A stretch of 30,962 nt of DNA, from IMG/VR virus record IMGVR_UViG_3300047678_000070, positions 1-30,962 of that record, one strand, 5' to 3'. The notes under the pieces are model-generated. The model was not told the origin of the DNA, did not search any database, and was given only the letters and a program-made list of their open reading frames with translations. This DNA is from a virus. The stretch's first letter is position 1, and the number at the start of each line of letters is the position of its first letter. This document shows, one piece after another, positions 609-25,543 of the stretch. Both the position numbers and the translations under genes were made by a program.

Positions 609-803
609 GTGTCCGATCTTTTGGTAACCATTTTAATGTCAGCGTGTCCTATCTCAGTATACGGTGGTACAACAAAATGCCAAGAGTACCTGGTGAATTG
701 CGCGGTAGGGCACAAGGGTGAGATTACCGCGGATTCCATCCGTAAGTGTTTAGAGAAATATCAAAAGGAGTCTCACGATGAGAGTTCTGATTCTGGGGAG
801 TAA
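609..803 (+). CDS. Small cysteine-containing protein, possibly exported
   Basis: A 64-residue protein starting at GTG, preceded by GGGGGA seven bases upstream. Residues 4-17 are hydrophobic and are followed by Cys24, Cys31 and Cys47, with Cys13 inside the hydrophobic stretch. This pattern could suit a small secreted or disulfide-bonded protein, but the N-terminus has no basic residues, so a signal peptide is doubtful. The C-terminal tail is acidic and Ser-rich. Its 3' end overlaps the next gene by 26 bases, and the next gene's ribosome binding site (AAGGAG) lies within it. Confidence 0.55.
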   Translation: MSDLLVTILMSACPISVYGGTTKCQEYLVNCAVGHKGEITADSIRKCLEKYQKESHDESSDSGE

Positions 804-1131
804 CCCGTCCACGAAGGGTGGAACTTGTCCTACAATTCGTAAACTAAAAACCTGGCTTGACGCACTTGATTTAAACATCGTAAGTTTCTGCAACGTCGCT
901 AATAGTCACGGTCCTATAAGTTTAAAGGACGTGAAGCGTGAATACATTCATGAGATTTCTCAGGGATATGATAAAATCATCACTCTCGGAGCGACAGCTG
1001 GTTATGCTCTCAGTCTTATGGGAATTCGTCATTATAGTCTTCCTCACCCTAGCGGTCTTAACCGCAAACTCAACCAACCCGGGTTTATAGAACAAGAACT
1101 TTCAAAGTGCAGGGAGTATTTATGGGCGTAA
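778..1131 (+). CDS. Mini uracil-DNA-glycosylase-superfamily protein
   Basis: A 117-residue protein with the two signature motifs of the uracil-DNA glycosylase fold: LGSNPS at residues 6-11 (Asn9 at the position of the catalytic Asn in MUG/TDG GINPG motifs) and HPSGLNR at 90-96, close to the base-flipping loop HPSPL/NPSGL. The internal strand IITLGATAGYAL (67-78) also fits the fold. It is shorter than cellular enzymes (about 160-230 residues), like many phage members. The possible role is removal or recognition of a particular base in DNA. It sits directly ahead of the presumed base-modification genes and its stop overlaps the next start by 10 bases. Whether it cleaves glycosidic bonds or only binds a base is unknown. 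Confidence 0.7.
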   Translation: MRVLILGSNPSTKGGTCPTIRKLKTWLDALDLNIVSFCNVANSHGPISLKDVKREYIHEISQGYDKIITLGATAGYALSLMGIRHYSLPHPSGLNRKLNQPGFIEQELSKCREYLWA

Positions 1132-2285
1132 GGTTTTTCTCAGACTTTGAAGTCTTCCACTCCAAGCGGATTGGTATTACTAATCTACTATCAAATATCA
1201 CAACCAGAGACGGGTCCCATAAAGGCGGTTGGGCTAGACTCCTCAAGTGCCAACTTCAGAACCTAGGTTACAAGAAAGGTAAGATCCTGGACAACAAAGA
1301 TAATTTGTCTGACTTTGACGTAATCATTTTTGATCTTGGTGCCGAGTACTCAGGTGCCCTTAATATGTTTGGTGGACTAGATGAGAAAGTTTTCAAAAGA
1401 CTCAACGAGATCAAGAATTTCAAGGGTGATCTTTTTTCTTGGCGTAATGACGTTCCTAACCTCTCCGTACTTGAAGGTCGTAGAAACAACGCCTCCAGTT
1501 GCGAAGCGTTCAAAGCAACACCGGAGACGTTTCTAACGGATGTTGATCTGGTTCTTCAAAAGACCAGAACGTTCGACCACGCCTATCCCACCAACAAACT
1601 GTTAATTGGTGACTCGCATACTCCGAGCGTCTGGACCCCGGACTACATGATTGAGCGTCAAGATGGACGAACCCTTTACGGGTCTTTGACCAACTCCACC
1701 ATCCTATCACTTGTGGATAAGTTTGAGGGAAGAGTTATGCACTTGATGGTTCACATGTCAAACATCGACGTTCGGCATCACCTGTGCCGCCAAGACAAAC
1801 CAGAAATTGCTACGGCCAACTTAGCCCAATCTCTTATGTGCACATTGAATGATTTAAGAATGATGCTTGGTATTTCCACTGTCACAGTGTGCCATACGGT
1901 TGGGATCGAGGACGAATCTCGAGAATTACCCAAGACCGGATATTATAAGGGCACTCCCTTCTATGGATCTTGGGAAGAGCGTAACCGTGTCAGAAACATT
2001 TACAACGCAATGGTTGACGAATTAGCTGTACATTTTGGATACGACGTAGTTAAATTTCCTGAAGTCTTCTTCGATGAACAGGGGAAGTTTAAGTTTGACG
2101 TAATGGAGAAACCACAGAGCGTTCACTTGAGCCCTGAGTTCTATCGTTGGGACCTAGATGAAAACACCAACAGATGGAGCACCTATGATAAACCTATTGC
2201 TGGCTATGAGCATGGCTCAGGCATCCTTGCCACACAAGTTAAGGTCACCTGCGATGACCAAACCACCGGAACTACAACCGTGTAG
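1122..2285 (+). CDS. SGNH/GDSL-hydrolase-like protein
   Basis: A 387-residue protein. I chose the ATG at 1122 because AGGGAG lies five bases upstream; the GTG at 1107 has no such site. Three blocks match an SGNH hydrolase fold: IGDSHTPSVW at 162-171 (nucleophile Ser165), HMSNIDVRHHL at 211-221 (like the GEIDxRxH block, with Asn214) and SVHLSPEFY at 333-341 (catalytic His335). Residues 1-150 form an N-terminal domain I do not recognise. Family members hydrolyse esters, often acyl groups on sugars or small molecules. The substrate here is unknown. Its place between a glycosylase-fold protein and a PLP enzyme suggests a step in side-chain chemistry, which is inference. Confidence 0.6.
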   Translation: MGVRFFSDFEVFHSKRIGITNLLSNITTRDGSHKGGWARLLKCQLQNLGYKKGKILDNKDNLSDFDVIIFDLGAEYSGALNMFGGLDEKVFKRLNEIKNFKGDLFSWRNDVPNLSVLEGRRNNASSCEAFKATPETFLTDVDLVLQKTRTFDHAYPTNKLLIGDSHTPSVWTPDYMIERQDGRTLYGSLTNSTILSLVDKFEGRVMHLMVHMSNIDVRHHLCRQDKPEIATANLAQSLMCTLNDLRMMLGISTVTVCHTVGIEDESRELPKTGYYKGTPFYGSWEERNRVRNIYNAMVDELAVHFGYDVVKFPEVFFDEQGKFKFDVMEKPQSVHLSPEFYRWDLDENTNRWSTYDKPIAGYEHGSGILATQVKVTCDDQTTGTTTV

Positions 2286-2478
2286 GGTTTGTTTAAAGGA
2301 CTATTCTGACTGCGTTATCAAAGTGATAAAGAAAAAGCCCACGGACGAAGTTTACGGAATCGAAGAAAAGATGTGCAAAGATCAACTGGACGTTTGTATA
2401 ATCCAGTTCAAATGTAGGATGGTACCAGAAGATGAGTCACAACAACCATATAGTGGACGGAAAGCATCTAGAGCTTGA
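2254..2478 (+). CDS. Small six-cysteine protein, unknown
   Basis: A 74-residue protein in a frame different from both neighbours, overlapping the preceding gene by 32 bases and the next by 47. The ATG at 2254 is preferred over an earlier in-frame ATG at 2158, which would lie deep inside the upstream gene. AAGG lies about nine bases upstream. Cys10, Cys13, Cys20, Cys41, Cys48 and Cys54 could bind a metal (a CxxC at 10-13) or form disulfides. The long overlaps make it less certain than its neighbours, but without it 146 bases between two closely packed genes would be empty. Confidence 0.5.
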   Translation: MTKPPELQPCRVCLKDYSDCVIKVIKKKPTDEVYGIEEKMCKDQLDVCIIQFKCRMVPEDESQQPYSGRKASRA

Positions 2479-3322
2479 CAAATTTGGACCTGATTGGTTC
2501 AGAGAGGTCACTCAAGATTGGCAGGATCCTTATGGTCTTCCAGTAGTTGAAGAACACGAAGGCATCAAAGTAGTTCGAGACGACATGATGGTTGGATCCA
2601 AATGTCGCTTCGCCGACCTACTTGTCCAGTCCATCAAAGAGGACACTCTGGTATACGTCCAGCCACGCGTAGGTTTGGCTGGAGTATCTATCCTCGAGAT
2701 CGCAAAGAAGTACGGCAAGAAAGTGGTTTTGTTCATGCCGTCTTCCAAGCGTATCAGTTTACATCAAGCTTGCTGCATTGAACGTGGAGCAATCCCGATG
2801 TTTCGCAGAATTGCTGCCATGCCCAACCTAAATCTGATGGCGAAGAAGTGGGCGGATGAAAACGGAGCTAAGTTCGTTCCACTCGGTCTCAAACATGAGC
2901 TCGTGGTCGCGTGTGCATCCAGAGTTGCGATGAATTTAAAAGAAGTGTATGGTGAACCTTCTGCATGCTACGTTGCCACATCTACTGGGGTCCTTGTTCG
3001 TGGTCTTCAAATCGGTTGGCCTAACACAGTGTTTTTTGCAGTGACTGTTTCTCGCAATATGAAAACTGGCGAACTCGGCCGTGCGATCCCGATTATTGAA
3101 CCCAAAGAGTTCCAAGCTCCTGAAAGTAAGCCGAGTCTTCCGCCGTTCCCGACCGTCTCTACTTATGATGCCAAGGTGTGGAAGTACGTGAAACAAGGTA
3201 AAGAAATGAATCCAAATGCAAATGTGTGGATGTGGAACGTAGGTCAAGAACCTAAACTCCAAGATGCAACCCTGTTTGACCGTGTAGATTCCCAGCGTAA
3301 CTGGGGAGAGGTTAGAGACTAA
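2432..3322 (+). CDS. Fold-type II PLP-dependent enzyme (ACC deaminase / TrpB-like)
   Basis: A 296-residue protein resembling the tryptophan-synthase-beta superfamily. VVRDDMMVGSKCRF at 47-60 matches the RDD...GGNKxR block of ACC deaminase and D-cysteine desulfhydrase, making Lys57 the likely PLP Schiff-base lysine. GLAGVSILEIAKKYGKKVVL (81-100) resembles the substrate-domain helix and strand that follow the SNH loop. ATSTGVLVRGLQIG (182-195) occupies the position of the Gly-rich phosphate-binding loop, though with fewer glycines. It is slightly short for the family (about 320-340). Family members eliminate or replace amino-acid side groups. Its stop shares one base with the next start, so translation is probably coupled to the aldolase. 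Confidence 0.65.
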   Translation: MSHNNHIVDGKHLELDKFGPDWFREVTQDWQDPYGLPVVEEHEGIKVVRDDMMVGSKCRFADLLVQSIKEDTLVYVQPRVGLAGVSILEIAKKYGKKVVLFMPSSKRISLHQACCIERGAIPMFRRIAAMPNLNLMAKKWADENGAKFVPLGLKHELVVACASRVAMNLKEVYGEPSACYVATSTGVLVRGLQIGWPNTVFFAVTVSRNMKTGELGRAIPIIEPKEFQAPESKPSLPPFPTVSTYDAKVWKYVKQGKEMNPNANVWMWNVGQEPKLQDATLFDRVDSQRNWGEVRD

Positions 3323-3936
3323 TGCTTACATCGATGGGCGACATAATGCGCGAAGCCCACAAGCGTGGCTGGATTACTACCAGAGATGGAAACATCTCGG
3401 TTCGTCGTCAAAGCAAGTTCTATATCACCCCAAGCGGGTGGCGCAAGACAATCATCCACCCAGAGCATATCCTTAAAGCTTATGTCCGTGATGATGGATC
3501 TTTAAAACGTCGAGACGTAATAGGAAAACCTTCCGGTGAACTTGAAATGCACCGCCTACTTCAGACAGTAGACTTTGCTCCGACCTCATGCCGCTCAGTG
3601 GTTCATCTCCATCCAACTTACACAATCGCAGCAATGCACCGAGGATTCAACCTACAAGAATTAGCTGCAGAGTTTCCTGAAGTTGGACGGTACACCAGAG
3701 TGGCTCCCACTGTACGAGTTCTTCCAGTAACGTCAGACATCTTAGCTCGAGAAACCTTCGCAGCCATGACCTCGTGGGAAGATGGAGACGCGCCCATGCT
3801 TATGTTTGATATTGTTGGCCAAGCTGGTCACGGCGTTTGCGCTGTTGGTAAAAGTCCTTGGGATGCATTTGAACACATTGAACGTCTTGAACACGTTTGC
3901 CAGATAGTTTTGGCCTCAGGAGTAAGCCCTAAATGA
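3322..3936 (+). CDS. Class II aldolase/adducin family protein
   Basis: A 204-residue protein of the L-fuculose-1-phosphate aldolase family, about the usual length. Family motifs are in order: DGNISVR (22-28), YITPSGW (34-40), SGELEMH (71-77), VVHLHPTYT (93-101) and GHGVCAVG (169-176), followed by a helix with Glu residues. Metal ligands are therefore His95, His97 and His170, with Glu73 as the catalytic acid/base; all are present, so it should be active. These enzymes make or break carbon-carbon bonds next to a carbonyl through a zinc enediolate. A GGGGAGAGG stretch lies about 11 bases ahead of the ATG. The context (PLP enzyme before, pyrophosphorylase-family gene after) suggests a role in building or trimming a base side chain. 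Confidence 0.8.
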   Translation: MLTSMGDIMREAHKRGWITTRDGNISVRRQSKFYITPSGWRKTIIHPEHILKAYVRDDGSLKRRDVIGKPSGELEMHRLLQTVDFAPTSCRSVVHLHPTYTIAAMHRGFNLQELAAEFPEVGRYTRVAPTVRVLPVTSDILARETFAAMTSWEDGDAPMLMFDIVGQAGHGVCAVGKSPWDAFEHIERLEHVCQIVLASGVSPK

Positions 3937-4979
3937 TTAAGACTGAGTTTTTCCAAGACTTTCTACATTACTATTCCAAGGCTGCAGACTTAGAAGACTC
4001 TAATGTCAGAAATGTCAAAGTCAACGTAAATGATCCATTGATGGACAACATTACCATCTACGATACAGTTCATCGTCGCCAAGCAGGTTTCTCAAAAGCT
4101 CTGGAGGACATTCATGGAGTCAGACAAAGAAAAGACCTTGTCCGCTACGCAGACTTCTCAAAACGAATCGATCCAAAAGCATTTCAGTTTCTACACCTAT
4201 TCCACAGGTTTACTGGTTCAGGCGCCTCATTTCAGCCGACCCTACTCCCTGACGGGAGCCGCAATCCTAAAGAACACGGTTACCACAACAATCACGTTGA
4301 GGAACTGGCCTCTCTTATAGTTCTCAGAGGAGAGCATGGCATTGCTTGTGCACGAGAATATATTTCAACGTGCGTAAAACCAATGGTCACTTCCGTAGGT
4401 AACCAACCACCTTCGTTGAAGAACAGGAACCCATCCAAATATCGTTTGGCTCAACAGTATTACTTTGACAACTTCGCTGAACAATTCGTAGACGACTATA
4501 TGACGTTTTTGATCAATCGTGAATATGAAACCAATCAGCCAACTGGGATTAAAGAGGCTGTTGACTTCTGCTGTGCGTGGCACAAAGAACGTGGTTTCAA
4601 GCAGTGGCACTTCGTCATGACTGCCTTCGTTATGGACACCGCTGAGTATTACCCTGAGTTAGTGGATCCTAAGTCTCATTGCTACTATGGTGCAAATTGC
4701 ATCAGATCCTTCAATTTGATGTTTGAGAAGGAAAAGACTGACAAAGAACGCGGAAACGACTACTTTGAGAAATGTATGACTGAAGTCTGTAAAGCAGTCC
4801 AAGGTCGACCTTATGATGTCGAGGATGTTTGCTGCGACTTCATCCGATATCTCGTGGAGTACGTTCCCAAAGGCTACGATCATTTAACCAGAGAACAAAG
4901 ACTCAACAACTCTACTTTAAAAATTAATGGGGTTTACCCGGAATGGTCTAAATTACGTATGGAAAGGATTCTCAAATGA
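3933..4979 (+). CDS. Alpha-glutamyl/putrescinyl thymine pyrophosphorylase-family protein (clade 3-like)
   Basis: A 348-residue protein. From memory of the family it carries the conserved blocks of phage aGPT-PPlase clade 3 proteins: FHRFTGSGASF (90-100), HGYHNNH (115-121), TSVGNQPP (153-160), MDTAEYYPELVDPKS (234-248), YYGANC (251-256) and VEDVCCDFIRYLVEYVP (296-312). The family comes from phages with hypermodified thymine. Related proteins were shown to transfer amino acids or amines onto a pyrophosphorylated 5-hydroxymethyl pyrimidine in DNA. It overlaps the aldolase stop in an ATGA junction and the following gene in another. The family call is by motif pattern only; the reaction here is inferred. 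Confidence 0.65.
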   Translation: MIKTEFFQDFLHYYSKAADLEDSNVRNVKVNVNDPLMDNITIYDTVHRRQAGFSKALEDIHGVRQRKDLVRYADFSKRIDPKAFQFLHLFHRFTGSGASFQPTLLPDGSRNPKEHGYHNNHVEELASLIVLRGEHGIACAREYISTCVKPMVTSVGNQPPSLKNRNPSKYRLAQQYYFDNFAEQFVDDYMTFLINREYETNQPTGIKEAVDFCCAWHKERGFKQWHFVMTAFVMDTAEYYPELVDPKSHCYYGANCIRSFNLMFEKEKTDKERGNDYFEKCMTEVCKAVQGRPYDVEDVCCDFIRYLVEYVPKGYDHLTREQRLNNSTLKINGVYPEWSKLRMERILK

Positions 4980-7756: not shown

Positions 7757-9979
7757 ATGAAAACATATTTAGCAGGTCTACAAGCCAGCGTACAAACGTC
7801 TTACGCTAATAACGGAAAAACGACCATGACCGGTCGGGCGTTTCAAAAATCAATCAACTCACAGAACGTAATTGGACCCGCTCTGACCCAATTCATAGAC
7901 GTACAAACGATCGCAGGATTTGTACCTTCGATGAGCTATTTTAATCCAGCAACCAATCATTTGTTTTTTATAGGTCCCGTGTCAGCTACTCCGACGATTG
8001 CGCTGTTCAATTTTAATAACCTTACAGGAGTATATTCCTACGTCGGTAAAGTTACTATGTCTCTGGCGAATGCTGCAGCTACAACTGAAGTCTGGCGCGG
8101 TTTTAAAGTTTACGAATCTGGTGGTTTGATTTACCCTATCGTCTCGTCAACCGGTAGCGTTATAATCAACGGTGGTAATTTTGTAGGATGGGGATTATCT
8201 ACGACAGATTTTACCGTAGGTGGCACTACGATCTACGCAGCAAACGGGTCTAATCAAAAGGCAGTGTACTTTCTTCAAGACTCGGGAGCTCTTGGAGCAG
8301 CTCATGTTGCAACTACTTCTTGGGGATTAGCCCTACCGCAAGCGTCGTCTTCGGGATCGATCAATACCAAAGTTTATCAGTTAAACGGTACGTTGGCTCT
8401 TCCAGTAGTCTATTCCTGGGATTTATCACTTACCCCGACAGTTGCAGGAATCATCACTAACGGAGTATCTGCGCAAACCACCTTATACGCAGGTACATCC
8501 CCTTCTGCATTTTTTACAATGGGATCTTCGAACAACGGTTACGCCAACGGCGATCAAATTGTGTTGCAAGCTGGAACTGGTAATCCTCCTACAAATTTCA
8601 ACGCATGGGTTGCAGGTACTTCGCAGGTTGCTGCTTCAAACGTTTACTTCGTCCGAGATCTACAACTAGTCTCTGGAAATTATTACTTCAACTTAGCAAC
8701 AACATCTGGAGGCGCTGCGGTCACTCCGACAAGTGCTGGATCTAGCTTTACGATGATGAGAGCGTTCGGGATTTGCGGTTCATTATTTAATTTTAAAACA
8801 GCAACACTTCCAGCTTTTACGCTAGGAACTATCCTTCAGAATAACTCAATTGGCTATGCAAAACCAACATTAGCTCCCGCAAACACAAATTTAAACGGTC
8901 AAGACTGCATCTACATGCTCACGACTACTGGATTGTATTTGGGTAAAATCTCAGATTTAACTTCTGGATCAGGTACCTGGGCGTCTATGACTTTCTCTGG
9001 CGTAAATATCACTGGAACTGGTATAGACATAACGGCTCCGACTGTTATCAGCGGTACATATTCCGGTCAAAACACACCTTATGCAATCGATAAATTCATC
9101 TATGCCACAAATACTTCTACTTATGTCGTCAAGCCGTATCAAGCATCAAATATCACAACAATTTTTGGTGGCCAAACAGACACGTACTTAGAAACCCTTA
9201 ATCCAGTAACTGTTCAGGCGGGATTGACTTCCACCACGGATACTAGCTGTTACGGCGGCTGGCTATTTGTATGTGGAAATACCGTGGGACAGCGTGGCTG
9301 CGTGTTCATTGATTTATATTCTGATAGCATGTTTGGATCATCTAGTGTAATCTCTCCAGTGTTGACAGTTCCAGCTGGTAGCATTTTGAAATATATAGAT
9401 TCTCTGGAGCAGTTATTTGATTACACTGATTCTATGAATTTCTTCATCAGATCTGCTCCAACTACTGGGGACGCCATGTTTAGCAGCGCCTCAGGTGGTT
9501 GGGTATCAATAAAGACAGCCCAAGACCTAAGTTCAGTTGCTATAGGACCAGCATTTCAATTAATGGCTCAATTCCAAATTGCAACCTTAGACGCAAACAC
9601 GCCGTCGCAACTAAATGATTTCGTGTATACAGTCGTACTGACAAACGAAATGTCGGATTACTGGGAAGGTTCTGTTGATAACACTACGCAGAATGGAGCC
9701 ACTCCAGCTTATACTGCTTTTCGTATGACACAAACATATGGATCAGCCTTTGGATCCGTAGTCCCTACTCTTTATTTCAGAGCTTACGACGATAGCGGAA
9801 ACTTAGTTGCGTCAGCAGACACGACGTCAACTCCCTCGTTATTTCAGTACACAACTAATAACGGATCGTCTTGGAATAGCTTGGGGACCATCGCAAACAC
9901 AGCCTTAACTACCGAGATACGGTATGTGTGGGCGACTCCTCCAGGAGTTAGGGTTACATGCTCGATTAGGGAGTCATAA
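7757..9979 (+). CDS. Large tail fiber / adhesin-like structural protein
   Basis: A 740-residue protein that is almost entirely beta-type: Ser, Thr, Gly, Asn and aromatic-rich, with few charged residues and few helices. Repeating short strands such as TIALFNFNNLTG and TTGLYLGKISDLTSG suggest a propeller or elongated beta fold. No catalytic motif is visible. Length, composition and position make a distal fiber or receptor-recognition protein the best guess. The ribosome binding site is weak (ACGGGG). The stop shares one base with the next start. Confidence 0.6.
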   Translation: MKTYLAGLQASVQTSYANNGKTTMTGRAFQKSINSQNVIGPALTQFIDVQTIAGFVPSMSYFNPATNHLFFIGPVSATPTIALFNFNNLTGVYSYVGKVTMSLANAAATTEVWRGFKVYESGGLIYPIVSSTGSVIINGGNFVGWGLSTTDFTVGGTTIYAANGSNQKAVYFLQDSGALGAAHVATTSWGLALPQASSSGSINTKVYQLNGTLALPVVYSWDLSLTPTVAGIITNGVSAQTTLYAGTSPSAFFTMGSSNNGYANGDQIVLQAGTGNPPTNFNAWVAGTSQVAASNVYFVRDLQLVSGNYYFNLATTSGGAAVTPTSAGSSFTMMRAFGICGSLFNFKTATLPAFTLGTILQNNSIGYAKPTLAPANTNLNGQDCIYMLTTTGLYLGKISDLTSGSGTWASMTFSGVNITGTGIDITAPTVISGTYSGQNTPYAIDKFIYATNTSTYVVKPYQASNITTIFGGQTDTYLETLNPVTVQAGLTSTTDTSCYGGWLFVCGNTVGQRGCVFIDLYSDSMFGSSSVISPVLTVPAGSILKYIDSLEQLFDYTDSMNFFIRSAPTTGDAMFSSASGGWVSIKTAQDLSSVAIGPAFQLMAQFQIATLDANTPSQLNDFVYTVVLTNEMSDYWEGSVDNTTQNGATPAYTAFRMTQTYGSAFGSVVPTLYFRAYDDSGNLVASADTTSTPSLFQYTTNNGSSWNSLGTIANTALTTEIRYVWATPPGVRVTCSIRES

Positions 9980-11985
9980 TGGCCTACAGTCAATACTTTG
10001 GTAAAGCCTCGCAGCTATTACCAAATACATCCGTAAATAACACGACGCCTCCGACGTTTGGTGGGATTTCGTCTTTGACGCAAAACTCGGACGGTAGCTT
10101 AACTGCAAGTTGGTCTGCTGCAACCGGATCTGGGGCAACACCGTTTACATACGTTATTTACGTCCAGGCTGCGACTTCAACTAACCTATTCAGTACAACT
10201 CCAATTGGTTCATTCTTTGGAACCAGCCAGCGATTTTTCTTAAATAACGTCGGAAACGTGCTTCAAGTTGGTCAAACCTACTATGTTGGAGTACGCGCAA
10301 AAACTGCAGTGGGAATATTTGACACTAATTTAGCTACTCAGTCAGCAACCATCGCCAATATTAACTACGCGAATCTGGCTGCGGCAGTTTGGGATCAATT
10401 GAAGTCGGCTCATGTAGCAGCCGGAACGTTTGGAGCCGCTCTCCAAGCCAATGTTGACGTTAACACATCAACTCTTGCACCAGCCGCCACGGCCTTATCC
10501 ACCGCGCAGTGGACTAACGCTAGGGCCGCGCTGCAAGATAATTTGGATGTTGCTGTCTCTTCGAGAGCTTCCCAAACTAGTGTTACGGCAATCCCAACTA
10601 ATCCGTTGTTGACAAGCGACACTAGACTGAATAATTTGGATGTTGCTGTCTCTTCGAGAGCTTCCCAAACTAGTGTTACCGCTATTCCTACAAACCCGCT
10701 GCTGACTACTGATTCTCGTCTAAACAACTTAGACGCAACCATCTCATCAAGAGCTTCAGCAACATCAGTCGCAGCTATTCCTACAAACCCGCTGTTGACC
10801 ACGGATAGTCGCATAAACAACTTAGACGCAACGGTCTCATCAAGAGCATCGGCAACTTCTGTTGCGGCTATCCCAACCACTCCGCAATTGGCATCTGTGG
10901 CACTTACACAATACAATTCTCTGATCTCAGGATTGGGTAGCATTCAGAATAACTCAAATTTCTCTGGAGTTGTTCCGTCTACTATGGATGAGCAAACTGG
11001 TTCAAACACGAAAGCCTACACCTTCTATGCTTCAGTGTTTAATAGTACAGGCTCTCCAGTTGACCCAGATTCTTCAACTCTGAATTTTACGGTCAAAGAC
11101 AGTCAGGGGAATGTACTCCAGGCCCAAGCCGCTATGACAAAAGTGTCTACCGGGAAGTACACCGGAGTTTTCACCGTGACGTCGTCAATGGTCGAAACCG
11201 ATGTGGTAGTGTTCTTCGATTACTCTTTGTCATCAGTTTCTTTTGAGCAAGTAAGAACTTCCAAAATTACTTCACTGTCCACGGATAGCGCAAACATCTC
11301 AGCTATCAAAGCTAAGACTGACAATTTGCCAACAGATCCAGCCTCAAACACTGTTGTAAATACGCGATCTAGCCAAACAAGCGTCAATTTAATTCCTGTA
11401 AATCCTTTGTTAACTACAGATGCAAGACTTAACAATTTGGATGCTACAATCTCATCTAGGGCGTCTCAGACAACTTTAAACGCAATCCCAACGAATCCTT
11501 TGTTGACCTCTGATACTCGTCTAAATCATTTAGATGTAGATATTTCATCAAGAGCTTCAGCAACCTCAGTTGCTGCTATCCCAACTAATCCGTTGCTAAC
11601 TACAGATTCTAGGTTGAATAATTTAGACGTTGCGGTTTCAAGTAGGTCCTCGGCCGCGTCTGTTGCGGCTATCCCGACCAACCCGCTTTTGACTACTGAT
11701 ACTAGATTGAATAATTTAGATGCTGCGGTATCCTCAAGAGCTTCTCAAAGCAGCTTAGACGCTGATTTCGGTAACATGTCAACCTTAGTCACCAATCTAC
11801 AGGCAACTTCGGTCAATATTGCGTCTACCGAAAGCTCGTTGGCAACTGATGTGACTAATCTAGGAACCGAAGTTACAGCCCTAAGCGGCGCAACTTCTGC
11901 GATTACAACAGCAGCTGCAAATGTTGACGCAGCGGCTACTCAAGTAGAAAACGCAGCATCTCTTGTCGTAGCAACTGTTTTATAA
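9979..11985 (+). CDS. Tail fiber with FN3-like domain and 31-residue repeats
   Basis: A 668-residue protein. Residues about 20-125 look like a fibronectin type III domain (PPTFGGISSLTQNSDGSL then SWSAATGSG and YYVGVRAKTAVG). Residues 188-306 carry four copies of a 31-residue repeat with the core SSRASxTSVxAIPTNPLL. Residues about 335-435 form an Ig-like beta domain. Five more repeat copies follow at about 456-593. The C-terminus is a heptad-like helix suited to trimerisation. SSRAS repeats of this type occur in phage fibers. The repeats probably form a rod that lengthens or spaces the fiber. It begins in a TAATG overlap. Confidence 0.7.
   Translation: MAYSQYFGKASQLLPNTSVNNTTPPTFGGISSLTQNSDGSLTASWSAATGSGATPFTYVIYVQAATSTNLFSTTPIGSFFGTSQRFFLNNVGNVLQVGQTYYVGVRAKTAVGIFDTNLATQSATIANINYANLAAAVWDQLKSAHVAAGTFGAALQANVDVNTSTLAPAATALSTAQWTNARAALQDNLDVAVSSRASQTSVTAIPTNPLLTSDTRLNNLDVAVSSRASQTSVTAIPTNPLLTTDSRLNNLDATISSRASATSVAAIPTNPLLTTDSRINNLDATVSSRASATSVAAIPTTPQLASVALTQYNSLISGLGSIQNNSNFSGVVPSTMDEQTGSNTKAYTFYASVFNSTGSPVDPDSSTLNFTVKDSQGNVLQAQAAMTKVSTGKYTGVFTVTSSMVETDVVVFFDYSLSSVSFEQVRTSKITSLSTDSANISAIKAKTDNLPTDPASNTVVNTRSSQTSVNLIPVNPLLTTDARLNNLDATISSRASQTTLNAIPTNPLLTSDTRLNHLDVDISSRASATSVAAIPTNPLLTTDSRLNNLDVAVSSRSSAASVAAIPTNPLLTTDTRLNNLDAAVSSRASQSSLDADFGNMSTLVTNLQATSVNIASTESSLATDVTNLGTEVTALSGATSAITTAAANVDAAATQVENAASLVVATVL
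10543..10896 (+). repeat. Direct repeat array 1 (four 93-bp units)
   Basis: In-frame units start at 10543, 10636, 10729 and 10822, each 93 bases (31 codons); the last is degenerate. The first two share an identical stretch of about 49 bases beginning at 10538 and 10631, so that duplication is recent or kept uniform by recombination. The others match mainly at protein level. Confidence 0.85.
11344..11757 (+). repeat. Direct repeat array 2 (five 93-bp units)
   Basis: Units begin at 11344 (divergent), 11437, 11530, 11623 and 11716 (partial). They encode the same 31-residue motif as array 1 but differ at DNA level. The array is separated from the first by an Ig-like domain of about 110 residues. 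Confidence 0.8.
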
Positions 11986-16155: not shown

Positions 16156-17643
16156 ATGAAGGCCAAAACGGAAGAACAACTCAAGCTCCCTAAATTCTTT
16201 GCCTCAGTGATTGTAATGAATCACTTGGGCCAGACTTTATTGGGCATCCGTAAAGAGGATGGTATTTGCACTCCTCCTGGAGGCCACGCTCAGGATCACG
16301 AAACTCCTGAACAATGTGCAGTTCGTGAACTGTTTGAAGAGTCGGCCATCATAGCCCAAGAGCGTGACTTGATTACTCTACCGACCATCGATACCGTTGG
16401 CGGAAAAATCTGTCACTGCTATTTATTGATTACGTCTCAAGTTGATCCCACGCCGAAGCTGGACCCTGATAAAGAAGTCTCCAGCTGGGCTTGGTATGAC
16501 GACCACAATCTTCCCAAAGCTTTGGAAAAAGATCCTCGTCGTCACGAATCAGTTAGGAACGCATTTATGAGATTCTATGGAATCACCAAAGGTGGAGAAG
16601 GTTCTGGCGTTAAAGGCCATACCACTCAAAAACAAGCTTTGGAAATCAAAGGCCACGGGACTAAATTGGTCGACTTGGCCACCAAACTTGTGGAGATGAA
16701 CCCCTTTAAAGAACAGCTTCACAAGTTGGAGAACGGTGCCATCTTTGAAGGCCACGAACTTCGTTCTGGCAAGCCTCTGTATTTGAACGTTGATCAAGCA
16801 ATGGCCCACGCCTACACTCCGGACGACTACAAAGAGGCGGGATCATTTCACTATGAGAAAGCTCAAAAGATGAGCTATCAAATTGAAAAGATCAAAGCTC
16901 TCGGCAAAACTCCTCCCCCTGAGATGGAAAAGATAGTTAAGTTCCATACTCGTCAATTCAAACAGAATTTCAACATGGCTGAGAAGACCCACAAGCGGAT
17001 GGCTGATACCGAAACAGCTTTGTCTGACAAGAAAAAAGAGTTGAATGCCAAAGCTCGTGAGGCAGCTGCCAAAAAGAACGTGAAGAAGTCTGTTGTAATG
17101 ATGGGTCAACAAGATTCAGCTGAAGTTGACACGGCTAAATTTGCCATGGAACATCAAGTAAGCCAGGACAACGACTGGTTTCATATCATTTCCAATGTGA
17201 TGGAAGGATACCAGTACGGAGACGTGCCCAGAGTAATCACCATCGACCGTGGCGAGCTTCATCTGGTTAAAGTGGATGACGGCATGTACACGGGATATGT
17301 GAAGCTGGTGAGGCTTATGGACTCTCCAGAAGGTGGACCCGTTCAGACTATGGAAGACAACGCCAAAGTCCGTATTGAACGTATGACGATTCCCTCTATG
17401 GTCCAGTTCCTTATGGCCAAAGAATATATCAAGCCGATCCCCGTAATGCCTGAGCCACCCCCCATGCTGCCTGAGGCGATGGTGTCTTTAAATGATAAGC
17501 TGCAAGATTCCATGACTTTGGAGCCCTTAAGTGAGTCTGAGGCGCAGCCTAATCATCCTCCGGTCTATCACGAGTCTGTTCTTAGGACCAAGATGGGTGA
17601 ACGGATTCGGATGCTCGAGCTGATAGATAAGTTGATCAACTGA
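16156..17643 (+). CDS. Nudix domain fused to a virion/head-associated protein
   Basis: A 495-residue protein. Residues 12-140 are a Nudix domain; the box Gx5Ex7REUxEExGU runs from Gly43 through Glu49, Arg57, Glu58, Leu59, Glu61 and Glu62, with Ala64 in place of the usual Gly. The metal-binding glutamates are present, so hydrolysis of a nucleoside diphosphate derivative is plausible. Immediately after comes GGEGSGVKGH (146-155), a glycine motif seen in phage head and MuF-type proteins. Charged helices follow at about 225-310, then a beta domain at 325-400 and a proline-rich segment. It may be packaged in the virion or act in head assembly. A promoter follows for the next gene. Confidence 0.6.
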   Translation: MKAKTEEQLKLPKFFASVIVMNHLGQTLLGIRKEDGICTPPGGHAQDHETPEQCAVRELFEESAIIAQERDLITLPTIDTVGGKICHCYLLITSQVDPTPKLDPDKEVSSWAWYDDHNLPKALEKDPRRHESVRNAFMRFYGITKGGEGSGVKGHTTQKQALEIKGHGTKLVDLATKLVEMNPFKEQLHKLENGAIFEGHELRSGKPLYLNVDQAMAHAYTPDDYKEAGSFHYEKAQKMSYQIEKIKALGKTPPPEMEKIVKFHTRQFKQNFNMAEKTHKRMADTETALSDKKKELNAKAREAAAKKNVKKSVVMMGQQDSAEVDTAKFAMEHQVSQDNDWFHIISNVMEGYQYGDVPRVITIDRGELHLVKVDDGMYTGYVKLVRLMDSPEGGPVQTMEDNAKVRIERMTIPSMVQFLMAKEYIKPIPVMPEPPPMLPEAMVSLNDKLQDSMTLEPLSESEAQPNHPPVYHESVLRTKMGERIRMLELIDKLIN

Positions 17644-20690: not shown

Positions 20691-21238
20691 TTAAACTTCT
20701 CCTTTGATTCGCGGAGCGCACGATGCGTCGCGTCGTTAACAGATTCAACCGTGAATTTACTGAACTGCCGGAGCAGTTCCAAGTCTTCAGCCGCTGAAAA
20801 CCCAAAGTGCTTCAAATAGGTCTTTGTCCAAAACTCAAAATCAGCATTTAAAATCTCTTGAGTTCTAGTTACTTCCCACTCTTCCCTCTGAGCCTTTACG
20901 GCATTGAGTTTCGTGTTATTGTTTAATACCTCGAGGCCGGGTTCGTTAAGACGAAAATGATGTCCAGATACCAAACCGCATGAAGTACATACCAAGTACG
21001 ACCCGGGGTCTAGTCCCCTAAGCGCCAAAGTAGTCCGAGTCCATGTATGCGGCTTACAGGTGATATTCATTTCAACGAATTCATCGCTTAAATGTTGAAG
21101 CCTAGGGAACTTCAACGACGATCGATAGTTGGAAATGATAACCACTATATTCTTTATGCCGACAAACATCATAACCCCGGTAAACATCGAAACCAAACAT
21201 AGTACGTATATTGCTGATTCCATATTACTTTTGTCCAT
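20687..21238 (-). CDS. Membrane-anchored zinc-site protein downstream of the sigma factor
   Basis: A 183-residue protein (start at 21238; an alternative start at 21223 would give 178). One long hydrophobic segment (residues about 8-36) is followed by a soluble domain with Cys61, His64, Cys84, Cys87 and His93/His94, a likely zinc site, and a helical C-terminus. It overlaps the end of the sigma gene by 14 bases, suggesting joint expression. A membrane protein beside a sigma gene raises the idea of an anti-sigma partner, but no anti-sigma fold is visible. Confidence 0.6.
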   Translation of the reverse strand: MDKSNMESAIYVLCLVSMFTGVMMFVGIKNIVVIISNYRSSLKFPRLQHLSDEFVEMNITCKPHTWTRTTLALRGLDPGSYLVCTSCGLVSGHHFRLNEPGLEVLNNNTKLNAVKAQREEWEVTRTQEILNADFEFWTKTYLKHFGFSAAEDLELLRQFSKFTVESVNDATHRALRESKEKFK

Positions 21239-22664
21239 CGAAATATTTCCCCGCTTTCTTTTTGATTTTTTTGAGTGCACTCGTTTCAACGACCCGAACC
21301 CCCTGTTTGGTGATTCCAATGTGCTCACCAATTGCTTGCAGGGTCAGTCCTTCTTCTTTTTCATCCGTATCATGGTGAAGAAGGTCAGACGGAACTTCTC
21401 CGATACCATACCTAAGGCGGATGATCTTCTCCGTACGAGGAGGCAGAGTCGCCAAAATCTGACGAATCCTTTCGCGCAAGATCTTGTTCTCAGTCAGAAC
21501 GTACGGATTATTAGCTGCGTCAGACGGAAGAACGTCCATCAACGCGATACCAGAAGAAAGCTCTTCCTCGATTCCAACTTCATGGAGAGCGCGGGTCTCG
21601 AGCTCCTCAAGAACTTTTAATTCAACTCCAGAAGCCTCAGAAAGTTCTTTAAGAGTCGGAGGACGTTTTAAAGTGCCAGTCAACTTGTGAGCTAAAGCAC
21701 TCAGGTTCGTCTGAAGGAATTCAATATGGGTAGGAATACGAACAGTTTTGCCTTTGTTGGAAATAGCACGACGCATTGATTGATCAATCCACCATGTGGC
21801 GTATGTAGCCACTTTGGTTTTCTTCGAGGAATCATACTTGTCAATGGCTTTCATCAGACCAATATTACCCTCTTGAATCAGATCTTCGAACTCAAGTCCA
21901 CGATCTTTCAAGTGTTTGGCTCTAGAGACCACAAGACGGAGATTACGCTCAATCAATTGATTCTTCGAACCTTTCATCTGATGCTCTGAGGTAGCCAATG
22001 CTGAATACGAGGTTTTTACGTCTTGAAACGTAATGCCTTTAGGAAGATTGGCTTTGGTTTCATCGAATTCTTTGATCGTGTTCTCCCACTCACCACATTT
22101 ATTCATCATTTGGATTTCGGTGAATCCCAGTTCTTTACGAAGTTTGAGACGAATCTCAGCGTTACCTCGAATATTGCCGATGAGTTCAATTACAACGTCG
22201 AAGGTGCGGTTACCAAACCACTTGGTAATTTGCTTCACTTTTTGTTCAACATCGTAGATCTTCGTGTGAGTCTTTTTGATTTCAGTGACGATTCCGTGAA
22301 TGATGGTTCCAGATAACCCAACTTCATTCAGTAAATCTTGCACGCCAGACATATTATTTGCTTGCAGTTCAACCACCAACTTCGTAAACGACTCGCTGAT
22401 CTTCGCAACCAGTTCTGCATTGGAATCTTCATCCAATTTCTTGGAGATGTCTACAATTTCTACGCCAGAGCTTTGAAGGCTCTTAAGATAAGACAACAAC
22501 TCGACTTTGGCGAATTCTGATTTCAGACAGTTATCTAGAATCTCTTTTTGGTATATTTCAATATTCTTCACTAACGCTGCCTCTTCAGCGCGAGTTAATA
22601 AAGGTCCTGAGTCTATCTGGCTCAGATACTTCGCAATCACTGCTTCGCTCGATTTGTTTTTCAT
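21225..22664 (-). CDS. RpoD-like sigma-70 factor (phage-encoded)
   Basis: A 479-residue group 1-like sigma factor. Residues 5-35 match region 1.2 (AKYLSQIDSGPLLTRAEEAA). A divergent non-conserved region spans about 40-230. Region 2 runs about 235-313 (FEDLIQEGNIGLMKAIDKYD; ATYATWWIDQS; VRIPTH). Region 3 is about 313-395 and region 4 about 400-470. The -10-reading residues are largely kept (Tyr288, Trp291, Trp292, Gln295), but Arg298 replaces Thr440 of E. coli RpoD. In region 4.2, TKQGVRVVE (452-460) replaces TRERIRQIE, so the usual -35 contacts are changed, and about 15 residues are inserted before it (425-439). The phage probably redirects host RNA polymerase. Ribosome binding site AAGGGGTGA. 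Confidence 0.9.
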   Translation of the reverse strand: MKNKSSEAVIAKYLSQIDSGPLLTRAEEAALVKNIEIYQKEILDNCLKSEFAKVELLSYLKSLQSSGVEIVDISKKLDEDSNAELVAKISESFTKLVVELQANNMSGVQDLLNEVGLSGTIIHGIVTEIKKTHTKIYDVEQKVKQITKWFGNRTFDVVIELIGNIRGNAEIRLKLRKELGFTEIQMMNKCGEWENTIKEFDETKANLPKGITFQDVKTSYSALATSEHQMKGSKNQLIERNLRLVVSRAKHLKDRGLEFEDLIQEGNIGLMKAIDKYDSSKKTKVATYATWWIDQSMRRAISNKGKTVRIPTHIEFLQTNLSALAHKLTGTLKRPPTLKELSEASGVELKVLEELETRALHEVGIEEELSSGIALMDVLPSDAANNPYVLTENKILRERIRQILATLPPRTEKIIRLRYGIGEVPSDLLHHDTDEKEEGLTLQAIGEHIGITKQGVRVVETSALKKIKKKAGKYFDGQK

Positions 22665-22759: not shown

Positions 22760-23218
22760 ATGTCTCGAAACAAAACAAAAACCGTAAATCCTGAGAATAG
22801 CTGCGCCAGTTTGTTTACCAGCGATGTACCAAAATTAAACGATCCCCTTGTAGACATGTTTAATATACAGATGAAGCTTCAGAAGCATCTGGCAGCAAGG
22901 GGACGGGGTGTTGATTATGAGATGGCCCCGTACATGGAATGTATTAACGACATCACGGTTCAGTGGAGAAATCTCACCCTAGAATTCGCTGAATTGCTGG
23001 AGAGGCTACCATTCAAAGAGTGGAAGACATATAGTCCTGAGCAGAAGGCTGGTGCCATGACTGACGAGGAACACCTCGAGCTCTTGTATGAATACGCAGA
23101 CATGTTTCATTTCTTTATGAATATCGGGCTGGCTCTTGGAGTTGACGGTCAACTACTCGAGAAACTATATGTGACCAAGAACAAAGAGAATATTGATCGT
23201 CAAAAGCGGGGGTATTAA
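22760..23218 (+). CDS. All-alpha NTP pyrophosphatase (dimeric dUTPase/dCTPase type)
   Basis: A 152-residue protein. The signature ExxE...ExxD is present as Glu75/Glu78 and Glu111/Asp114, the magnesium-binding acids of the MazG/dUTPase-2 superfamily. FKEWKTY (85-91) matches the FKWWK substrate segment, HFFMNIGLALG the next helix, and YVTKNKENIDRQKRGY (137-152) the conserved C-terminal K/N/R motif. The family hydrolyses dUTP and dCTP (as in T4 gp56) to the monophosphate. Paired with the thymidylate-synthase-fold gene, it would supply dCMP or dUMP and lower the normal nucleotide pool, the usual arrangement in phages with modified DNA. Confidence 0.8.
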   Translation: MSRNKTKTVNPENSCASLFTSDVPKLNDPLVDMFNIQMKLQKHLAARGRGVDYEMAPYMECINDITVQWRNLTLEFAELLERLPFKEWKTYSPEQKAGAMTDEEHLELLYEYADMFHFFMNIGLALGVDGQLLEKLYVTKNKENIDRQKRGY

Positions 23219-23546: not shown

Positions 23547-23834
23547 ATGAGAGCCAAAATGATTAGTCAAGGTGATCTTATAGAGATGCACCGTAACTTC
23601 TTGGATATGTATAAAGAGCGTCCTGAATTATTTGAAGCTCCAACTGAACGTCAACCTGGAGCTCACCCAGCTCTAGGAGCTTCTTACGGAAGTGTTCCAA
23701 TCAACATAGCGATTACGATCAACTTCGATGATCACAAGGGTTGTAACCATCGTTGGAAAAATTATGTAGGATTCAGCGAAGCCTATAAGTATTGCACAAA
23801 GTGTTCAGAAAAGAGAAATCTAGATGAGCAATAA
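23547..23834 (+). CDS. Small protein with C-terminal zinc finger
   Basis: A 95-residue protein. CNHRW (66-70) and CTKC (83-86) give Cys66, His68, Cys83 and Cys86 as a likely zinc site, in a layout common among small phage proteins. The first 60 residues have no recognised fold. It overlaps the next gene by 11 bases. Confidence 0.6.
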   Translation: MRAKMISQGDLIEMHRNFLDMYKERPELFEAPTERQPGAHPALGASYGSVPINIAITINFDDHKGCNHRWKNYVGFSEAYKYCTKCSEKRNLDEQ

Positions 23835-24630
23835 AGTCTATGAGACTGTTCACGAAGCTTACCTTGAGACCATGAGAGACGTGTATTACAACTATGAATA
23901 CACATCAGAACCTCGTGGTCAGCGCGTCCGTGAAAAGCTCAACTATTCCTTCACCATCACCAAACCAACTATCGACCCTATCGTTACCAAAGACGCAGAA
24001 CGTAATATTGTGATTGCTTCATACTCACAAAAAGAGTTTGACTTGTACGACTCAGGCTCTAATCGAGTTGAAGACTTTATGAAGGCATCAAAGTTCTGGG
24101 GTAAGCTTGCCAATCCAGATGGCACAGTCAATTCAGCCTATGGTTACCTCATATGGAAGAACCGTTCTCACGGCAACCCGTTTGAACAGGAGAGCATAGA
24201 TCACCCGCTGTTCGTATCTACAGACGGTGGTCCAGGTAAAGTCACCAAGCTCATGCCCAAATACCGCACACCTTGGGAATGGGCGTTCGAATCGTTAGTT
24301 GCAGACAAGGATACTCGTCAAGCAATTCTTCGATTCTCCTTACCTGAGCATCAATGGATGGGCAATAAGGACCAGACTTGCACGCTCCACGGTATCTTCA
24401 TGATTCGAAACAACAAACTCAACTTGACCATCAACATGAGATCCAACGATCTGACCTTAGGTTTGGTCTATGATCTTCCTTGGTTTATTTCGTTGATGTT
24501 TAAAATGAAACACGATCTTCGTGAAGTTTACCCTGACCTGGAGATTGGCAATTATACTCACTACGTCCATAATCTTCACGTTTATGACCGTGACGAAGAT
24601 AAAATACTCAAAATGCTAGGAGACAAATAA
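23824..24630 (+). CDS. Thymidylate-synthase-fold dNMP hydroxymethylase (dCMP-type residue)
   Basis: A 268-residue protein of the thymidylate synthase family, close to the usual 264. AYGYLIW (105-111), WEWAFESLVADKDTRQAILR (151-170), the nucleophile Cys186 in DQTCTLHGIF, Arg206-Ser207 of the RSxD motif (RSNDLTLGLVYDL, 206-218) and the THYVHNLH block (245-252) are present. The position of the Asn that binds uracil in thymidylate synthase is Asp217 here. The same Asn-to-Asp change is known in T4 dCMP hydroxymethylase. The likely reaction is transfer of a one-carbon unit from methylene-tetrahydrofolate to dCMP to give 5-hydroxymethyl-dCMP; a dCMP methylase is the alternative. It follows the pyrophosphatase by two small genes. 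Confidence 0.75.
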   Translation: MSNKVYETVHEAYLETMRDVYYNYEYTSEPRGQRVREKLNYSFTITKPTIDPIVTKDAERNIVIASYSQKEFDLYDSGSNRVEDFMKASKFWGKLANPDGTVNSAYGYLIWKNRSHGNPFEQESIDHPLFVSTDGGPGKVTKLMPKYRTPWEWAFESLVADKDTRQAILRFSLPEHQWMGNKDQTCTLHGIFMIRNNKLNLTINMRSNDLTLGLVYDLPWFISLMFKMKHDLREVYPDLEIGNYTHYVHNLHVYDRDEDKILKMLGDK

Positions 24631-24963: not shown

Positions 24964-24979
24964 TAGGGGAGTGGATTCA

Positions 24980-25543
24980 ATGTACCCAAGTAAATTTTTG
25001 ATCGATGGAATTGATCGTCTAGGTAAATCTACCCTATCCCAGTCTATTTTAAATGAGCTGGGCTACCACCTTATGATTCATTACGACAAGCCCAAAGTGC
25101 TTCCGTATTACACTCAAGCTTTGTCTCCAAATCAGGCCCGGTATCAGTATCAATACGAGTGCAACGTCAATATGTTTCGCCTATTGAAATCTGACGTCCC
25201 AGTCATTTTCGATCGTACACATTTAGGTGAACTGGTCTACGCTCCGATCTATCGTGGCTACTCAGGTGAGTACGTTTACGATATGGAGGTGGATCTTATG
25301 GACGAAAAACCTTTCACTGGCAAAGATAATATCAGATTGATACTATTGACTACGTCCAACTTCGATATAGTGACCGATGACGGCCAATCCTTCGATTTCA
25401 CGAAGAAAGAACTCGAACAACAAATGTTTGTAGATGCTTTCAATAAATCGAATCTGGCAGACAAGGTATTGATCGACGTTCATAATGGCCACGGTGGATT
25501 TAAAAGTCAACAGGAAATTCTTTTCGAGGCTCTCAGGAAGTAG
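24980..25543 (+). CDS. P-loop deoxynucleotide kinase (dTMP kinase-like)
   Basis: A 187-residue protein; the ATG at 24980 is chosen because GGGGAG is eight bases upstream. Walker A is GIDRLGKST (10-18, Lys16, Ser17). FDRTHLGELVYAPIYRG (77-93) carries the Asp-Arg motif of the dTMP kinase/deoxynucleoside kinase group. In T4 the equivalent job is done by gp1, which phosphorylates hydroxymethyl-dCMP. P-loop kinases of this general kind also phosphorylate 5-hydroxymethyl pyrimidines within DNA in hypermodified phages. The sequence does not decide between a mononucleotide kinase and a DNA hydroxymethyl kinase. Clustering with the hydroxymethylase favours one of them. Confidence 0.65.
   Translation: MYPSKFLIDGIDRLGKSTLSQSILNELGYHLMIHYDKPKVLPYYTQALSPNQARYQYQYECNVNMFRLLKSDVPVIFDRTHLGELVYAPIYRGYSGEYVYDMEVDLMDEKPFTGKDNIRLILLTTSNFDIVTDDGQSFDFTKKELEQQMFVDAFNKSNLADKVLIDVHNGHGGFKSQQEILFEALRK

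Follow-up and report, generated by a model that had tools for sequence, protein, structure and literature searches.

Which pyrimidine, uracil or cytosine, is the substrate of the thymidylate synthase (TS)-fold protein encoded at positions 23824-24630 (+) of an environmental viral DNA, and what becomes of its product? The DNA in question, hereafter the window, is the whole stretch of 30,962 nucleotides that was analysed, and derives from a virus of bacteria known only as an environmental DNA fragment (31 kb). A reading made from the letters alone, the sequence-only reading, had noticed an Asp in place of the Asn of thymidylate synthases at the site that recognizes the base, and had proposed dCMP as the favoured substrate.

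The pyrimidine-specificity site

In enzymes of the TS fold, the choice between dUMP and dCMP is mainly determined by one position, occupied by Asn or Asp, as established by mutagenesis and structures (PMC6400193, PMC5175136). Specifically, Asp179 of T4 dCMP hydroxymethylase selects dCMP and protonates N3, again on mutational and structural grounds (PMC6400193), and Asp is common to MilA, BcmA and T4 gp42, whereas Asn is found in TS and in dUMP hydroxymethylase (PMC5175136). In a metagenome association study, TS homologs with Asp at position 177 were found on contigs with modified cytosine and those with Asn on unmodified ones, and position 147, directly after the Cys, proved to be a second discriminating site in environmental DNA (PMC8670742). 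A distinct signature, consisting of an Asp three residues before the Cys together with a Ser-x-Tyr motif, is indicative of hydroxymethylation and not of methylation (PMC6400193). The sequence-only reading, which had singled out the Asn/Asp site as the pyrimidine-specificity determinant, is in agreement with this published mutagenesis and with the structures.

The frame at 23824-24630 is a single open frame with an ATG start and encodes 268 aa. Its product matches the Pfam model Thymidylat_synt (9.4e-11) and phrog_160 (1.7e-28); its best solved relatives in the PDB are MilA (1.6e-17) and T4 dCMP hydroxymethylase (9.3e-14), while the best thymidylate synthase match is weaker (PDB, 3.3e-05). The protein satisfies the test for the TS fold, namely a Cys nucleophile and an R-S-x-D motif. 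In particular, the nucleophile Cys186 (TGC, 24379-24381) and the pair Arg206-Ser207, both of which had been said to be retained, are indeed present, in register with Cys148 and Arg168-Ser169 of T4 gp42. The distances of 20 residues from Cys186 to Arg206 and of 11 from Arg206 to Asp217 (GAT, 24472-24474) are identical to those of E. coli ThyA (C146, R166, N177) and T4 gp42 (C148, R168, D179). Given this equal spacing, the equivalence of Asp217 with T4 Asp179 and E. coli TS Asn177 needs no gap placement; the key column was in fact assigned by reading the motif directly, not from a gapped alignment. The pairing of Asp217 with Asp179 proposed earlier holds in this ungapped register, residue number included. 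A sequencing error can be excluded, since Asp occupies the same position in the close viral relatives L002 (73% identity) and L003 (65%), and a chance origin is contradicted by T4-type residues at other diagnostic positions (S104, Y106, D183, T187).

The residue following the nucleophile, Thr187, is the same as in T4 gp42, the dUMP hydroxymethylases having Asn and ThyA having His at this point. Moreover, the Asn of the SPO1 and M6 dUMP hydroxymethylases lies one residue further on (RSNDLxWGxxGAN). The hydroxymethylation signature is complete: Asp183 (24370-24372), three residues before the Cys, is the equivalent of T4 Asp145, involved in water activation, and Ser104-Ala-Tyr106 (24133-24141) corresponds to T4 Ser94/Tyr96. 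As Asp183 is common to dUMP hydroxymethylases, it is evidence for a hydroxymethyl product and not for cytosine. In addition, the protein ends 14 residues past a His-Val-Tyr motif and lacks the folate-closing tail of the TS type.

Overall, the residues shared with T4 gp42 comprise E71, S104, Y106, R165, D183, C186, T187, R206-S207, D217, H252 and Y254. The two proteins differ in that identity is only about 26%, the window protein falls in a separate, well-supported clade, and Gln166 takes the place of the second Arg that binds phosphate in T4 (Arg124). MilA, the CMP hydroxymethylase of mildiomycin and the best PDB match, likewise has Asp at the cytosine position, but its preference for ribose is conferred by Ala176 and Lys133 (PMC5175136), where the window protein has the deoxyribose markers Ser207 and Arg165. 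A CMP hydroxymethylase of the MilA type, for which Ala176 and Lys133 would be expected, was rejected on this basis.

Neighbouring genes and nucleotide supply

As in T4, a gp56-like dCTPase is encoded nearby. This all-alpha dCTPase/dUTPase (22760-23218, +), the gene of which is located 0.6 kb upstream of the TS gene, matches Pfam dUTPase_2 (2e-10) and, in BLASTP, shares 31% identity with T4 gp56 (1.4e-16) in an alignment that reaches the last residue. In T4, gp56 converts dCTP to dCMP and thereby lowers the dCTP pool (PMC8056088; also the note in the T4 record). On the opposite strand, a sigma-70 type factor with regions 1.2, 2 and 4 (21225-22664, -) adjoins the dCTPase gene. At 0.3 kb downstream of the TS gene, a P-loop kinase is encoded (24971-25543, +), with a weak likeness to thymidylate kinase (Pfam 2.8e-4, phrog_761 8e-9) and, by direct comparison, no detectable similarity to T4 gp1 or M6 HMUDK; an hm-dCMP kinase is a candidate function, by inference only. 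In L002 the genes for dCTPase, TS and kinase abut.

The 31 kb fragment encodes no TS homolog apart from the window TS; the genome is incomplete, and a TS elsewhere in it remains unproved. Among relatives, ThyX is present in all five records longer than 130 kb (G007, G008, G012, G013 and LR756500), and the relative 44RR2.8t has a separate ThyA. In one of these records (W01, LR756500.1, 276524-278152, -) a single frame of 577 aa matches ThyX in two segments separated by about 1 kb, which suggests an intein or a similar insertion that keeps the frame.

In the phylogenetic tree, the window TS groups in one clade with L002, L003, L189 and L205 (100/99). The cultured relatives of the window TS adjoin cytosine-modifying genes, namely a carbamoyltransferase in Xp15 and a beta-glucosyltransferase in ATCCB. 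In the available sequence of L002, L003 and LR756500, no transferase, PLP or o392 genes (described below) were found. L189 (3987-4790) and L205 (10443-11225) encode the window-like Asp-type TS, and both contigs also have a relative of the window aldolase, with no fam348 operon in their available sequence.

Elsewhere in the window, a long protein (9979-11985, +), seen by eye to be built of repeated SSRASxTSVxAIPTNPLLTTDxRLNNLD-type blocks, is probably a tail fibre. A further product (16156-17643, +) appears by eye to be Nudix hydrolase-like in its N-terminal part (GGHAQDHETPEQCAVRELFEESA), with an unrelated C-terminal part.

The operon at 778-4979 and its relatives

Amino-acid-based DNA hypermodification has been characterized on thymine, in phages M6, ViI and phiW-14. 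The amino acid and PLP steps of the M6/ViI pathway were reportedly worked out by Lee et al., and to our knowledge operons combining a transferase with a PLP enzyme are so far known only on thymine. In M6 and ViI, a DNA kinase phosphorylates 5hmdU in the DNA, which is then further modified (PMC6449724).

At 19 kb from the TS gene, a distance that counts against the pathway proposed below, the window contains an operon (778-4979) of five plus-strand genes, the ends of which overlap or nearly touch. The first encodes a small protein of the UDG superfamily (778-1131, +) that has a counterpart in M6 gp048 (83.7% in a profile comparison). It is followed by o392 (1122-2285, +), by a PLP-dependent enzyme of the PALP type (2432-3322, +) homologous to M6 gp052 (hhalign 97.6%, 3e-12), by a class II aldolase (3322-3936, +), found within such operons only in the window, L156 and L157, and by fam348 (3933-4979, +), which fold comparison relates to the amino acid:DNA transferases (ADDT) and aGPT-PPlases as a divergent relative. 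The operon thus resembles that of Pseudomonas phage M6 in its UDG-like protein, homologous PLP enzyme, transferase of the same broad fold and association with a pyrimidine hydroxymethylase. Unlike the window, M6 encodes a radical SAM protein, a 5hmdU kinase of the P-loop type that is accompanied by a helical partner, and a hydroxymethylase of the Asn (dUMP) type; the window, in turn, has the class II aldolase and o392 in addition. The kinase (PF18748) and its helical partner (PF18723) were both found in M6, and neither in the window nor in five larger records with the operon (G006, G007, G008, G012 and G013), all of them possibly incomplete.

The relationship of fam348 to known transferases depends on its predicted fold. 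An AlphaFold2 model built from 21 sequences (pLDDT 70.6) was compared by Foldseek with viral models (BFVD), and retrieved ADDT-domain proteins (3e-13 and 2.4e-4) and aGPT-PPlase1 (0.014, probability 1.00). Against the PDB, the top matches were 8-oxoguanine DNA glycosylases (OGG-type) at a non-significant E of 0.2. Direct sequence evidence for an ADDT failed: the Pfam ADDT model (PF18724) was unmatched in the 21 members or in 16 records, no Pfam model matched the window protein, and the hhalign comparison with M6 ADDT was not significant. Accordingly, only the fold search supports the ADDT link; the modelled fold would make fam348 a divergent relative of the ADDT / aGPT-PPlase proteins, and transfer of an amino acid or amine is an inference. 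Profiles of the transferase, o392 and PLP enzyme likewise retrieved no convincing PDB relative by sequence. Another conserved operon protein of about 334 aa (L057:3011-4033, and 41 loci of the L006-L085 set) is distantly related to fam348 (hhalign 66.7%, 5e-5) and was not seen in the window.

As to o392, a stretch near its N-terminus resembles the N-domain of T4 beta-glucosyltransferase (BGT): the T4-BGT Pfam model matches 8 of 25 family members (best 0.0023), and hhalign aligns o392 with T4 BGT over about 60 residues (E 2.7e-4). The remainder, in a model of pLDDT 77.5, matches the fold of SGNH hydrolases (1.9e-5), in the place where T4 BGT has its GT-B second domain. A candidate function, by inference, is that of an enzyme recognizing and/or activating hmC in DNA. 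The homology extends to the N-terminal half of ORF233c of the T4-like Aeromonas phage 44RR2.8t (hhalign 100%, 2.4e-60), a protein of 795 aa (L086:8016-10400) which, unlike o392, has a further region weakly similar to the helical partner of the 5hmdU kinase (HMUDK_hel; 8e-4). Among cultured T4-like phages of Aeromonas, ORF233c is a candidate for an enzyme that modifies hmC.

Relatives of fam348 are encoded by 279 IMG/VR stretches, and 80 loci were retained for neighbourhood counts. In these loci, all partners being on the same strand, the PALP enzyme is present in 69, an o392 relative in 67 and the UDG-like protein in 41. A TS homolog is found upstream of fam348 in 59 of the 80; the remaining 21 contigs end less than 2.7 kb upstream of fam348, too early to tell, so that every contig long enough to show a TS has one (59/59). 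All 59 homologs have Asp at the specificity position, and those whose genes are complete also show the remaining T4 signature residues. In the control set, TS homologs that accompany the M6-type (thymine) transferase, Asn is found in 32/32, the M6 genome being counted twice. The 59 homologs reduce to 32 groups at 90% identity and to 15 at 70%; as the operons are related, their common Asp is for the most part a matter of descent and represents few independent events. The operon-linked homologs form with T4 gp42 a separate clade (100/99), outside of which the window TS falls, although it too has Asp. The pairing of the fam348 operon with two Asp-type lineages argues, within the limit of few independent events, that the operon needs hmC. 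Two contigs assigned to bacterial bins (L214 and L215) likewise combine the operon with a TS of the Asp type.

The preference for cytosine put forward by the sequence-only reading is therefore sustained by the literature, the gp56-like dCTPase, the Thr after the Cys and the division of 59 Asp versus 32 Asn, though by no assay. That reading had also presented a cytosine target as a departure for systems of the aGPT-PPlase type. This is right as regards thymine; it is not a peculiarity of the window, being the rule for its branch of transferases, in at least 59 other contigs.

Competing readings, a possible pathway and its meaning

On the residues described, the protein at 23824-24630 is very probably an enzyme that converts dCMP to 5hm-dCMP, a prediction for which there is no assay and no biochemical data. 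A dCMP methylase, in which Asp217 would likewise provide dCMP and hydride transfer would yield 5-methyl-dCMP, has a precedent in E. coli TS, where Asn177Asp alone produces such an activity, as cited in PMC8670742. This is nevertheless very improbable, as Asp183 in place of the TS Leu, the presence of Ser104/Tyr106 and the absence of the TS C-terminal tail are marks of a hydroxymethylase, and a methyl group would leave the downstream operon no substrate. Slightly less credible still is a dUMP hydroxymethylase with an operon that, like those of M6 and ViI, modifies bases derived from thymine. The PLP enzyme, the UDG-like protein and the transferase fold are indeed common to the M6 thymine pathway, but enzymes such as SPO1 gp29 and M6 gp58 would be expected to show the GAN-motif Asn and the Asn after the Cys, neither of which is in the window protein, and the dCTPase context is also against it. 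That an ordinary phage TS has undergone a chance substitution is hardly conceivable, even if the 31 kb fragment has no other TS homolog: such an enzyme should have Asn177, Leu three residues before the Cys and the folate-closing tail, whereas Asp217, Asp183 and a tail-less end were found, hydroxymethylases are its closest matches, T4-type residues occur throughout and Asp is present in all close relatives.

The fate of the hydroxymethyl group is less clear. A serious rival, though an unlikely one, accepts that hmC is made and holds that a sugar or acyl group is added to it, with o392 performing the transfer and the other genes making or trimming the donor. The BGT-like stretch of o392 and the occurrence of an o392 relative in 44RR2.8t without transferase or PLP gene would fit such a scheme; however, the rest of o392 has the SGNH-like fold and no GT-B second domain, and the constant partners of the operon are the aGPT-PPlase fold protein and the M6-type PLP enzyme. 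That hmC carries an amino-acid-derived decoration has, by analogy, about an even chance of being correct, and the final base is unknown.

For this preferred reading, a pathway can be envisaged in which the gp56-like dCTPase would convert dCTP to dCMP, and the enzyme at 23824-24630 would combine dCMP with methylene-tetrahydrofolate to give 5-hydroxymethyl-dCMP. In this step Cys186 would act as the nucleophile, Asp217 would hold the cytosine and protonate N3, and Asp183, Ser104 and Tyr106 would position the attacking water. Kinases might then raise hm-dCMP to hm-dCTP, to be incorporated by the polymerase into phage DNA, and after replication the operon at 778-4979 would decorate the hydroxymethyl group. 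Most likely, o392 would recognize and/or activate hmC in the DNA; fam348 might swap the activated group for an amino acid or amine; and the PLP enzyme, joined in the window's lineage by the class II aldolase, could trim or rebuild the attached side chain. Attachment by the transferase and trimming by the PLP enzyme are proposed in analogy with M6/ViI. What the sequence itself provides are residues, homologies and gene neighbourhoods; all the reactions are inferred from them, and this applies most strongly to the identity of the attached group.

A dCMP hydroxymethylase alone is a further member of a known family; the main interest resides in the constant company that the Asp-type TS keeps with a transferase and PLP operon. 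The operon looks like a version, for cytosine, of the pathway by which M6 and ViI hypermodify thymidine, and the known 5hmdU kinase is apparently missing from it. No description of a cytosine variant of the pathway was found in the literature searched, which did not include the most relevant papers. A broader proposal, to which we give somewhat less than an even chance, is that many uncultured phages bear a hypermodified C derived from an amino acid, for which a divergent transferase acts together with an M6-type PLP enzyme on 5hmC; activation of the hydroxymethyl group would be the task of a new BGT-like DNA-reading/SGNH enzyme and not of the known P-loop kinase, and the window's sub-lineage would have an additional aldolase step. 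At least 80 environmental phage contigs have the presumed cytosine counterpart, whereas sequence searches recovered none from 50,697 phage records, where fam348 gave no tblastn match. If true, such a cytosine counterpart, which supports a one-residue rule for inferring the target base from sequence, would extend the known DNA bases by a further class, together with new enzymes writing on 5hmC, and would offer a testable reason for a possible restriction resistance of the phages that carry it.
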